From NCBI GenBank assembly GCA_002007465.1, contig LNAC01000745.1, positions 296,921-360,920 of the forward strand: DNA of 64,000 bases, written 5' to 3'. Positions 3,790-60,275 of the stretch are shown piece by piece. Both the position numbers and the translations under genes were made by a program. The stretch's first letter is position 1. Each line of letters starts with the position of its first letter. This stretch comes from Ailurus styani. Taxonomy: Eukaryota; Chordata; Mammalia; Carnivora; Ailuridae. The notes beneath the pieces were generated by a model. It was not told the DNA's origin and did no database searches. It saw only the letters and a list, made by a program, of their open reading frames with translations.

Positions 3790-4875
3790 TGATGCATTCC
3801 ACTTGAAACCAGTGGGCTTTTCACCACCCTGGGTTTTTGGATTTTTTTTTTTTTTAAGTAGTCAATGGTATTGCTCTTTAAATTCTGTTATTACGATCAG
3901 GCCCAAGTATACTTCTGTCTGTGAGTGTTCTAACATCAGCTACTCAGCTTGTTTGAGTGCTGCCAGAGATGGATAGAAAAATCACATCAAGTATCCCAAC
4001 AATAGCCCTTGTCTCTGGCCATTTGACAACTTCACTGGCCCCAGGAGGAAACATATCTGCGTGTGACCTCTGGTTGTCTTTTCTTTACCTTTCTTTACCT
4101 CTTCCCACACACACACCAGAGAGATATCAGTGTTCGGCATAATGTTTAATTTGGGAGAAAATATAATTACTATTGCAAGAGTGTACTCATTTCACAGAGG
4201 AGGAGACAAAGCATTAAGCCATTATATTACTAAGGACTCAGTAGCAATGATAGAAATACAAGCCAAACTGCCTTAAAGTGGAAGATAGAATGGAGGGATT
4301 TACTAGCTTATTAATCGACAGGGTTCTGGGGATCACTGGCTTCAGTTAAGGCTGGTTCAGGGACTCACACAGGGTCCTCGGTACCAGATCTCTATCTGTG
4401 GTCCTGCTCTCTTTGTGTTGATTTCATGCCCTGTTTGGCCCTTCACTGTGGCCATCAGGCACACTCCTCATACCTCCGTAGCTCCAGCAAATACAGAGTT
4501 TAAACGCTTAGGACTTCAAAATTAAGTCCTGAAATTGAACCACATTGTCTAGGTCACTGTCATATGTCCACATTTATGGATGAACATTGTGGGAAGAAGG
4601 CATAGAACTGACTGGCCAGACCTGAGTAACATGCCCATTAGATGAGCCTCATCCAAACTGTGGGGACTGAAATTGAGGAGTTAGTAGTCTTGCAGAGGAA
4701 ATTCAAAGTGCTGTTCGAAAAGGAAAAGAATATGACTCTGGGCAGTTTAAAATATACAAACATGACAACTATAATTACAAACAGAAAAATTAAGAAATAT
4801 GCCCAAGGTCAAATCTAAGTCAAGAGTGACAGACAGTATAAAAGCCTATATTTCATTACTTACAACCTGGCTAGA
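3790..4875. other. Mostly unique; faint MIR-like traces
   Basis: Short stretches near 4185-4260 (cattTCACAGAGGAGGAGACAAAG) and 4785-4840 (AAATATGCCCAAGGTCAAAT) resemble the minus-strand MIR core, but neither can be aligned over a useful length by eye. No gene is seen. Confidence 0.3.
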
Positions 4876-6464: not shown

Positions 6465-6522
<58 letters not shown>

Positions 6523-6674
6523 GCGCACACATATATTACATATATACATATATTACATATATACACATATGTAATATATATACATATATTACATATATAT
6601 ACATATATACATATATATATACACACACACACATACATACACACACATACATACACACACATACACACAAACAC
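6465..6674. repeat. Compound (TA)n/(CA)n/(CATA)n microsatellite
   Basis: An uninterrupted (AT)n block of about 45 bases is followed by (AC)n, by a stretch alternating TATATTACATATATACA units, then by ACACACATACAT units, ending near 6674. The AT part can form cruciform or slipped structures. Open frames of up to 156 codons that cross it (Thr-Tyr-Ile repeats) are artefacts of the repeat. Confidence 0.97.
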
Positions 6675-10329: not shown

Positions 10330-10449
10330 GTACTCTGTGTATGTATACATATATATTTATATATAGTGCATATATATTTATATATAGTGTATATATATAC
10401 ATATATGTGTGTATATATATGTGTGTGTATGTATATATATGTATATATA

Positions 10450-10521
<72 letters not shown>
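10330..10521. repeat. Compound (TA)n/(TG)n microsatellite
   Basis: Alternating TATATA, GTGTGT and TATATTTATATATAGTG units run for about 190 bases, ending in an (AT)n block of about 60 bases interrupted once by ACAT. It sits inside the L1-like fragment and has probably expanded from a T/A/G-rich part of it. Confidence 0.97.
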
Positions 10522-55742: not shown

Positions 55743-57230
55743 CAATTTTAGGAACTCTATTTATAAGAGAATACAAAATTCCTGGTGAGTTAGCATGGTA
55801 ATGATTACATAGAAATCCCTTTATCCCTAAAGATGTTTTGGCCTTAAATTTATTTTTTTCTGAATTAAATATAGGTATGCTGATGTTTGGTTAATATTTC
55901 TGTGACATAACTTTTCCCATTGCTTCCATTCATCTAATGGGTTTTTTTAAGTTTTTATTGAAATTTCAGTGTCATGTTAGTTTAAGGTGTACAAAAGAGT
56001 GATTCAACACTTCCTTATATCAACCAGTGCTCCTCATGACAGGTGTGTGCCTTAATCCCTATCACCTATTTCACCTGTTCCCCCCTCCTGTCCTTTGACC
56101 TTATGTTTTAAAGATCATTTATAAACAGCTCGTACCTAATTTGATATTTTTAGTGCAATCAGAAAAGTTGTTGACTTTTAATCAAATTCAGACCACTTAT
56201 ATTTATTTATCATCATATTTGTATTTATTTATTATTTTGTGCTTTCTATTTGCAACGTTTTCCCTGAATGTCTTCTACTGGTGTTTCAAGAAGTTTGCTG
56301 ACCTCCTGTCATTACGTTTTAAGTAATGTGTCTTTTCTTCCTGTCTGCTTTCAAGATCTTTCCTTTGAAGTGAATGTTTTCTGTGTTTTACAATGCTTCC
56401 CTGTGAAGTATCCTGGCTGTGGATCAGATTTTAGTCATTCTAAAATTACTTATTTTAAAGCCTCCCTTTGCTGATTCTATTCCCTCAAATTCTTCAGAGT
56501 TTAAATCAGCTGTTTGTTGAATCAGCTGATTTTTATTTTGGGGGTGCTTTTTTCCTTTTATATTTCATAATTTTGGATCATCCATGCATGTTCACTTAGA
56601 CTTTACAGGTGGGACTGCTAAGGAGATGGGTTGATACTCTATCTCCCTAGAAGGAGTCTGTTTTGCTTCTGTCACCCAGAGAAATTACCAGAAACAAACC
56701 AAATTTTGGAGGGGATCCCACCTTATCATAAATTCTTGACTTACAGATTACCAAATCATACAAGTAGTGTACTAAACCTGTGTACACATAGACTTTTAAT
56801 GATGGTGTCATGAAGGAGACTTTTTCTCCCACCCAGAACCCAAGTCAAAAAGACCAGTAAGCCTTTTTTTCCTCCCCTCTCCCTGTGCTAGTAAGTGGCT
56901 TTGTGGTACAGTGTTCATTTGTTTGTATCCCACGCCCCCGGTGCTACTGTCGCTTAGGGTAATTCCTTTTAGGATTCTATATATGGGGGCCTGGGGTAGA
57001 GTCTTTTCTAAGTCCCCTCATTACAAAGACCAGAGATTCCATTCTTATTTTCTGCCTTTTGACTATTAACATGTATGCCCATGGTCTTCAGAACCAGCAC
57101 CCACCTCCATCACAAGGCAGACACAAGTTAACTCCCATATTCAGCTTAGCTTCTCCATTTCCTTGCCATCTTTGGTGCCTAGGATTTCTTTAACTATCCT
57201 GAATGTTCTGCTTTGTTATTTTTTACCAAT
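55743..57230. other. Carnivore L1 fragment and unique sequence
   Basis: About 55940-56100 carries carnivore L1 3' wording: TTTTTATTGAAATTTCAGTG, AGTGATTCAACACTTCCTTA, TAATCCCTATCACCTATTTC. The rest, to 57230, is unclassified with no gene recognised. Confidence 0.5.
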
Positions 57231-57362
57231 CCAATTCAGCTGTTTTGTTTCAGCCAAGATTGTATTGTTTTATGCCATCTAGTCTGCTATATATTGCCAG
57301 AAATTGAAATCCCAAGTCACCTCCCTTTAAAATAGAATCTTCCCTGGGGACGCCCGGGTGGC
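57231..57362 (+). repeat. 132-bp duplicated segment, source copy
   Basis: From CCAATTCAGCTGTTTTGTTT to CGCCCGGGTGGC, this segment recurs at 58455-58586 with one mismatch (G at 57306, A at 58530), a constant offset of 1224. It contains unique DNA plus the first 17 bases of the SINE that continues here. Because the SINE is complete only here, this copy is the source. Confidence 0.97.
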
Positions 57363-57535
57363 ACAGTCACTTAAGCATCTAATTCTTTGCTTTTGGCTCA
57401 GGTCATGATCTCAGGGTCGTGGAATTGAGCCCTGCATTGGGGCATCTGCTTTCTCTTTCTCTTTCTCCCTTTCCCTCTGCCCCTCCCCCTGCTTACACAG
57501 TCTCTAAATAAATAAGTAATAAAATCTTTTTTAAA
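57346..57535 (+). mobile_element. CAN-type SINE, older subfamily
   Basis: GGGGACGCCCGGGTGGCACA, CTAATTCTTTGCTTTTGGCT, GGTCATGATCTCAGGGTCGT and the tail AAATAAATAAGTAATAAAAT then CTTTTTT and A run. Its first bases are part of the 132-bp duplication. Confidence 0.93.
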
Positions 57536-57547
57536 AAATAAAATGTA

Positions 57548-57757
57548 GGGCGCCTGGGTGGCTCAGTGGGTTAAAGCCCCTGCCTTCGGCTCAGGTCATG
57601 ATCTCAGGGTCCTGGGATCGAGGCCCATATCGGGCTCTCTGCTCGGCAGGGAGCCTGCTTCCTCCTCTCTCTCTGCCTGCCTCTCTGTCTACTTGTGATC
57701 TCTGTTTCTCTGTCAAATAAATAAAATCTTTAAAAATAAATAAATAAAATAAAATAA
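57548..57757 (+). mobile_element. CAN-type SINE, younger subfamily
   Basis: Near-consensus young copy: GGGCGCCTGGGTGGCTCAGT, TTAAAGCCCCTGCC, GGGATCGAGGCCC, CTGTCTACTTGTGATCTCTG, with a tail grown into (AAATA)n. It sits directly after the A tail of the older SINE. ATAAAATGTA flanks it on both sides. Confidence 0.95.
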
Positions 57758-57769
57758 AATAAAATGTAA

Positions 57770-58299
57770 TACAACATTCCCCTCCCTTTATAATCCTTTG
57801 CTACTAAAAATCCAAGCATCCTTTCACATATAATTTACCATCAGTCTTACTGTGGCTGGAGTTGGTACAGTCTACCTCGACCTTGATTTGGTTCTGTGCC
57901 TGCCTGAGAGTTTCTCAGAAGTTCACTGCAGTCTGAGTCTCTTCCAAACCAATCTTCCTTCCCTCCCTTTCTCTTTTCATGAGTGTCAAACTTTTATTAC
58001 AGTCTGAAGGCTCTCTCCACTTAATCTGCTTCTTATGCCTTCACCATTCGCAGACATTCCCCCCAACAGGTCTCCTGGAGGTCCGATTCTGCCTTGACAT
58101 CTGCTTCTGAGAGGACCCAAACCAGCACATTCAGTGAAGATGAAGTCTGCCTTTTACGATTGTGTATCTTTCTATCATAAATTTCACGGGACTTTTGCCC
58201 AAATTGCAACAAGCTCTTTGAGATTTCTATATTTCTGTGAAGGTAGCCTAGCACTGTTACTACTCTAACTAGGACTCCTTTGCTCCAGACTGATATGAA
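57770..58299. other. Unique sequence
   Basis: No gene or repeat is recognised. The minus-strand 73-codon frame at 58033-58254 has no recognisable domain. Confidence 0.4.
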
Positions 58300-58675
58300 G
58301 AAACCACTGCTTTTAAAATACTTGTGACTAGTGTGATATTTGTGAGATAATCTTCCTGAATACTTGTCAACCTCATTTCAGAATTTCCAGACTACGGCAA
58401 CATTCTAGAACCGTCTATGACTTGGAAAAATGAAAAGTGATTTGGGTAGAATACCCAATTCAGCTGTTTTGTTTCAGCCAAGATTGTATTGTTTTATGCC
58501 ATCTAGTCTGCTATATATTGCCAGAAATTAAAATCCCAAGTCACCTCCCTTTAAAATAGAATCTTCCCTGGGGACGCCCGGGTGGCGCCATGGTGTCATG
58601 GTCTGTCCATATATAAGAGCTTTGTCATATACATTCCTTCCACAAATTCTCCCCATAGCCACAGAGTAGGGAAAT
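58300..58675. repeat. Unnamed repeat, copy A, carrying the 132-bp insertion
   Basis: 58300-58454 plus 58587-58675 aligns with 60063-60275. Shared phrases include AATCTTCCTGAA/GATCTTCCTGAA, CATTCTAGAACC(G/T)TCTATGACTTGG and TGGT(C/T)TGTCCAT. The alignment breaks exactly at the duplicated 132-bp block, which is therefore an insertion into this copy. I cannot name the family. Confidence 0.7.
58455..58586 (+). repeat. 132-bp duplicated segment, inserted copy
   Basis: 131 of 132 bases match 57231-57362. The copy stops abruptly 17 bases into a SINE head (GGGGACGCCCGGGTGGC) and is followed by GCCATGGT then host repeat sequence. No A tail or clear duplication flanks it. That suggests templated insertion or a copy made during DNA repair rather than retrotransposition. 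Confidence 0.95.
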
Positions 58676-60062: not shown

Positions 60063-60275
60063 TCTAACCTATAAAATACAATCAGTGCTACATTTGTAGA
60101 ATGATCTTCCTGAAAAATCGCGGAACCTCTTTTCAGAATTACCATGCTAAAGCGGCATTCTAGAACCTTCTATGACTTGGTAAAATGGGAAACTGATTTA
60201 GACCGGGCACCCTTCATGGTTTGTCCATGTAGAAAAGTTTTGTTCTATTAAATTCTCAGAGCAGGGAGAATGCAA
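60063..60275. repeat. Unnamed repeat, copy B, uninterrupted
   Basis: Homologous to copy A at 58300-58675: GATCTTCCTGAAAAATCGCG, CTCTTTTCAGAATTACCATG, GCATTCTAGAACCTTCTATG, ACTTGGTAAAATGGGAAACT, GATTTAGACCGGGCACCCTT then CATGGTTTGTCCATG. It lacks the 132-bp block, so it shows the pre-insertion state. Confidence 0.65.

Follow-up and report, generated by a model that had tools for sequence, protein, structure and literature searches.

A 132-bp block of DNA in Ailurus styani occurs twice within a short distance, as a donor copy at 57231..57362 and as an acceptor copy at 58455..58586, and a germline repair-mediated local duplication is the best explanation of the pair and very probably the correct one. 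Positions are those of the window, that is, the whole stretch of 64,000 nucleotides that was analysed (C745:296921-360920, in an assembly of 2.318 Gb and 2389 contigs), and all features lie on the + strand. The acceptor coordinates include the two bases, CC, that the inserted block has in common with the edge of its target.

Results

The block and its copy

When the two copies were aligned together with their flanks, 131/132 positions were identical in direct orientation at a fixed offset of 1224, which bears out the identity and offset claimed in the initial annotation. The sole difference is at 57306, where the first copy has G and the second has A at the corresponding position. The copies are separated by 1092 bp and are not tandem, and their ends are abrupt, with only 15/60 bases matching in the flank on each side. 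Under a simple composition model the chance expectation for such a match in 64 kb is about 1e-65, and chance is excluded as the source of the pair. Self-comparison of the window gave 240 pairs at E <=1e-6, and the block pair was the only one with both >99% identity and a length >100 bp; besides it, only two pairs exceeded 99% identity, of 28 and 30 bp. With the block as query, a permissive BLAST search of the window gave three further weak matches of 22-31 bp (74-85% identity, E 0.02-1.0). The self-comparison also contained short mutual matches between 6467-6674 and 10402-10519, in both orientations and in several registers, and these regions are apparently simple-repeat-like.

When the whole assembly was searched with the block, two candidates were scored, and both were the known copies (2/2, counts being lower bounds). 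This search skips common words and may miss diverged relatives, and a similar search missed a partner of 78% identity, so diverged copies of the block might escape too; near-identical copies with the same ends should not. Because the genome search returned only these two places, the block is not a dispersed family of near-identical copies, and a mobile element of that kind is likewise ruled out. The many genomic copies with the same boundaries that would have spoken against a local event were looked for in the genome, and two copies were found. Apart from the SINE start described below, the donor block consists of DNA found nowhere else in the 2.318 Gb at the level of near-identical copies.

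Direction of copying

The window is rich in what we take to be carnivore-type tRNA-derived SINEs, and the element at the donor site is presumably Can-SINE-like. This older SINE runs past the block and occupies 57346..57545 (end approximate), as judged by reading the sequence and by comparing its 5' end with other SINE starts of the window and of sampled loci. Its first 17 bases (57346-57362) lie inside the block. The SINE continues at the first site only, and at the second site it stops after those 17 bases. Within 57346-57760 a younger-looking SINE in the same orientation lies directly after the A-rich tail of the older one.

The reverse direction would require a lone 17-base SINE start at the second site, and an insertion at the first site that happened to meet the remaining SINE exactly. 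The arrangement supports the first copy as the donor, with copying from the first to the second site. The initial annotation had described the block as unique DNA plus 17 SINE bases, with the SINE complete only at the first site, and had proposed the same direction; both points agree with the sequence, as the SINE is cut short, and a resident element interrupted, only at the second site.

Both copies read CCCGGG in the SINE start. Across the window and 15 stretches sampled from its scaffold, a SINE-start motif had 65 matches, with T at the base concerned in 61 and C in 3, although the motif itself holds the T form and so favours T, and the matches include both block copies and some that are not SINEs. 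The three matches with C are the two block copies and one other SINE, in sampled stretch L011. The C common to both copies agrees with copying after the donor SINE had changed and is modest evidence for it. Because the L011 element also has CCCGGG, the motif may reflect a subfamily or a recurrent state rather than a change private to the donor. An extension of the block by two bases rightward through a decayed CpG was considered and dropped, as T follows GGTGGC in 58/65 motif matches; G follows in 2/65, which are the acceptor itself and one match that is not a SINE-like start. A SINE divergence table, in which 12/60 matches with near-complete probe coverage were kept, supports no claim here.

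The interrupted element

The second copy splits an element of about 184 bp. The left half lies at 58314..58454 and aligns to 60072 onward, and the right half lies at 58596..58636, with 78.6% identity over 42 columns to 60214-60255 and weaker similarity that may extend further. The uninterrupted partner at 60072..60255, aligned with the insert left out, serves as a stand-in for the empty site. Without the insert, the split element is identical to 60072-60255 at 137/181 ungapped columns, and this alignment scored 74, compared with 14-17.5 in 20 shuffles and 15.5 for the reversed sequence.

A core pattern of the split element (31 letters, 29 of them specified, <=3 mismatches) had 2 matches in 2.3 Gb, both in the window, and the reversed-pattern control had 0 genome matches. 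Because the core has no third genomic copy at <=3 mismatches, the split element and its partner probably go back to an older local duplication (about 184 bp, offset about 1.76 kb) rather than to a dispersed repeat; the alternative is a very old family, the rest of which has diverged too far for the core-pattern search. Permissive BLAST of 214,000 letters (the window plus the 15 sampled stretches, including 12,568 N) found no further copies of the element, only matches of 26-27 bp to its right part (E 0.09-0.23). Genome searches with the partner and with the left half were insensitive, as each found its query alone and missed the query's counterpart. Rebuilding the ancestral target from a repeat family was therefore impossible, since the core pattern occurs in two places and the longer searches returned only the query. 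Of the initial annotation's split repeat with an intact sister at 60063-60275, the split and the partner stand, but the partner is shorter (60072-60255) and a genome-wide family did not appear at the stringency tested.

Junctions

The ends of the insert read CCAATTC and GGTGGC. The partner reads ...CACCC|TTCATGG.... In the acceptor, ...TACCC is followed by the block (third base through GGTGGC), by GCCATGGTG and finally by TCATGG.... At the left junction the alignment to the partner suggests a 2-bp CC overlap (58455..58456), which would suit the start of the donor as well as the target ACCC. At the right junction about 9 nt (GCCATGGTG, 58587..58595) are absent from the partner copy and are read as filler. 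At most one or two target bases were lost at the junction relative to the partner. The readings of the filler and of the CC overlap are provisional because only one partner, about 76% identical, stands in for the ancestral target, and a 2-bp overlap by itself would be weak evidence for microhomology.

The insert ends carry neither an A tail nor a poly-A/T tract of >=5 bp, and a clear target-site duplication of >=5 bp is missing from the flanks of the insert. The filler and the bases next to it form an imperfect 8-bp echo (CATGGTGT / CATGGTCT) on the right side only. The lack of an A tail or an obvious target-site duplication had been noted in the initial annotation and was borne out at both ends. 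A LINE-1-mediated (class 1) insertion is ruled out, as the insert has neither an A tail nor a flanking target-site duplication. An 11-bp match of the filler edge at 56802 was considered as a second template for the filler and was not above chance; no second template is claimed because, within 3 kb, matches of at least that length turned up for 38/300 random positions.

Discussion

Comparison with repair-mediated duplications

Local repair duplications are well documented in vertebrates. The passages drawn on here from Pace, Sen, Batzer and Feschotte 2009 (PMC2671141) define repair-mediated duplications (RDs) as insertions that are >=50 bp long and have one donor, no more than 5 kb away, and report 824 in human and 192 in dog, a carnivore. 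Proximal RDs have a median length of 147 bp and a maximum of 619 bp. Their donor-acceptor distances show an apparent peak near 1,200 bp, which the authors warn is possibly a method artefact. Among the 39 proximal RDs that were inspected, a poly-A/T tail was present in 0/39 and a target-site duplication in 6/39. Breakpoints had microhomology of 2-9 nt, filler of 1-68 nt and deletions of 1-15 nt. All 39 were judged consistent with imperfect break repair, and the paper attributes the class as a whole to synthesis-dependent strand annealing at a double-strand break.

The pair at 57231 and 58455 appears to fit this class in length, spacing, copy number and junctions. The insert is 132 bp long, against the minimum of 50 bp, and has only one other genomic place found (counts again being lower bounds). 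Its offset of 1224, with 1092 bp between the copies, falls inside the 5-kb and >50-bp limits of PMC2671141. As in the inspected RDs, there is no poly-A/T tract of >=5 bp at the insert ends. The 2-bp CC overlap and the filler of about 9 nt also resemble RD junctions, provisionally, as they are read relative to one diverged partner. One difference concerns the acceptor. The RD acceptors described in PMC2671141 are interrupted annotated transposable elements; at 58455 the interrupted element, which may or may not be a transposable element, resumes after the insert and is one of a local pair with no third copy at <=3 mismatches. For that reason the RD pipeline might miss the 58455 acceptor. The insertion is not unusual, because the RD class has already been described in PMC2671141, and the 58455 copy is an ordinary though very clean example of it.

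Several other systems share some of these features, as far as the portions of the sources used here describe them. Templated insertions attributed to MMBIR (PMC8421209) use a nearby DNA template and short microhomology, and germline cases are reported in humans; the search in that study targets inverted copies with templates within 100 bp, whereas the Ailurus copy is direct and comes from 1.2 kb away. Short-range template switching in great apes (PMC7954356) also copies sequence through local polymerase switching, but concerns small mutation clusters. In the call set of one individual (PMC7640490), 773/13,850 annotated insertions (5%) were dispersed duplications, and 519 of the 773 (printed as 63%) were in simple repeat regions.

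Alternative explanations

An assembly artefact, in which the block was wrongly placed twice during scaffolding or gap closing, is the alternative that survives best and is nevertheless unlikely. The scaffold is gapped, and near-identity of the copies is what such an error would give. A background survey covered 15 10-kb stretches of the same scaffold (150,000 letters, 12,568 N). Ns were present in 9/15 stretches, the first of which was almost wholly N and two of which had a single N; some of these Ns may not be true assembly gaps. Six pairs of >=40 bp and >=93% identity were found in the 15 stretches; five were 93-95% identical, and the only one above 96% was a pair of 110 bp about 4.3 kb past the end of the window. 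Its two members are exact copies of a SINE piece that flank a single N (L010:4331-4440 and 4462-4571; C745:365251-365491) and is most likely an unmerged gap edge. The assembly thus seems to contain false local duplications, although this one sits at a marked gap, and the L010 pair can serve as a control for them. The window, however, contains no N. Additionally, the second copy abuts unrelated DNA at either end, with an overlap of <=2 bp, which would be unusual for overlap-based gap closing, the copies differ at one base, and the insertion sits inside an element that can be aligned on both sides.

A patch templated by RNA, in which a reverse-transcribed transcript fragment sealed the break, is very improbable. 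In the portion of Onozawa and Aplan 2016 (PMC5110952) considered here, class 2 templated sequence insertion polymorphisms are described as having no A tail or target-site duplication and NHEJ-like junctions with microhomology or added nucleotides, and the experimental inserts were 73-414 bp long. The 58455 insert resembles them in having no A tail or clear target-site duplication, and its possible microhomology and filler would suit such a patch. However, the experimental class 2 inserts came from distant regions and were argued to derive from RNA, whereas the donor at this locus is local, at 1.2 kb. The agreement of 39/39 inspected proximal RDs with imperfect break repair (PMC2671141) also weighs against an RNA template. 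Least probable of all is an old duplication kept alike by gene conversion, in which case the near-identity would not date the event: the locus does hold an older diverged pair (58314 onward versus 60072-60255), and duplication is not new there, but conversion would have to span the full 132 bp to both ends, and no diverged margin is seen at the ends.

Proposed mechanism

The sequence and the genome search show that the block was copied, in which direction, that it has no further near-identical copies in the genome, and how the junctions are built relative to a diverged partner. The repair-mediated duplication that would account for them can be set out in a few steps. A break or stalled end would have arisen inside the old element near 58454. 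The left 3' end would then have annealed to the donor 1.2 kb upstream, by a match as short as CC, and about 130 nt would have been copied rightward, into the start of the SINE. After detaching, the copied end would have been joined to the right end, with a gain of about 9 nucleotides, and the second copy would subsequently have become fixed in the germline. The initial annotation had argued for repair-templated insertion and against retrotransposition, and this is supported by the missing A tail, the lack of a clear target-site duplication and the presence of two copies only. Synthesis-dependent strand annealing finished by end joining is the somewhat favoured pathway, and replication template switching of the MMBIR/FoSTeS type is possible, at a distinctly lower probability. 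The scar left by replicative template switching would look much the same, and the two pathways cannot be told apart from sequence alone.

Age and implications

The copies differ at 1/132 positions, a divergence of 0.76% (95% interval 0.02-4.2%). At 2.2e-9 per site and year, which is the primate rate used in PMC2671141, this corresponds to a rough age of about 1.7 million years (interval 0.04-9.6). The second copy is apparently recent and, given the near-identity, might even be polymorphic. For human-specific RDs the mean divergence given in PMC2671141 is 0.89%.

A tentative reading, which we consider doubtful, is that the locus is a recurrent repair hot spot, at which an older local duplication of about 184 bp was broken and then patched by a second, recent local duplication. 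If this is true, two generations of repair-mediated duplication would be nested at one place. Acceptors inside low-copy elements might escape counts built on interrupted annotated repeats, such as those in the portions of PMC2671141 used here. The 58455 copy provides a clean carnivore case of a process studied mainly in primates, and it indicates that such events are recognisable from one genome if the donor contains a landmark such as a SINE start and the acceptor can be compared with an uninterrupted partner nearby.
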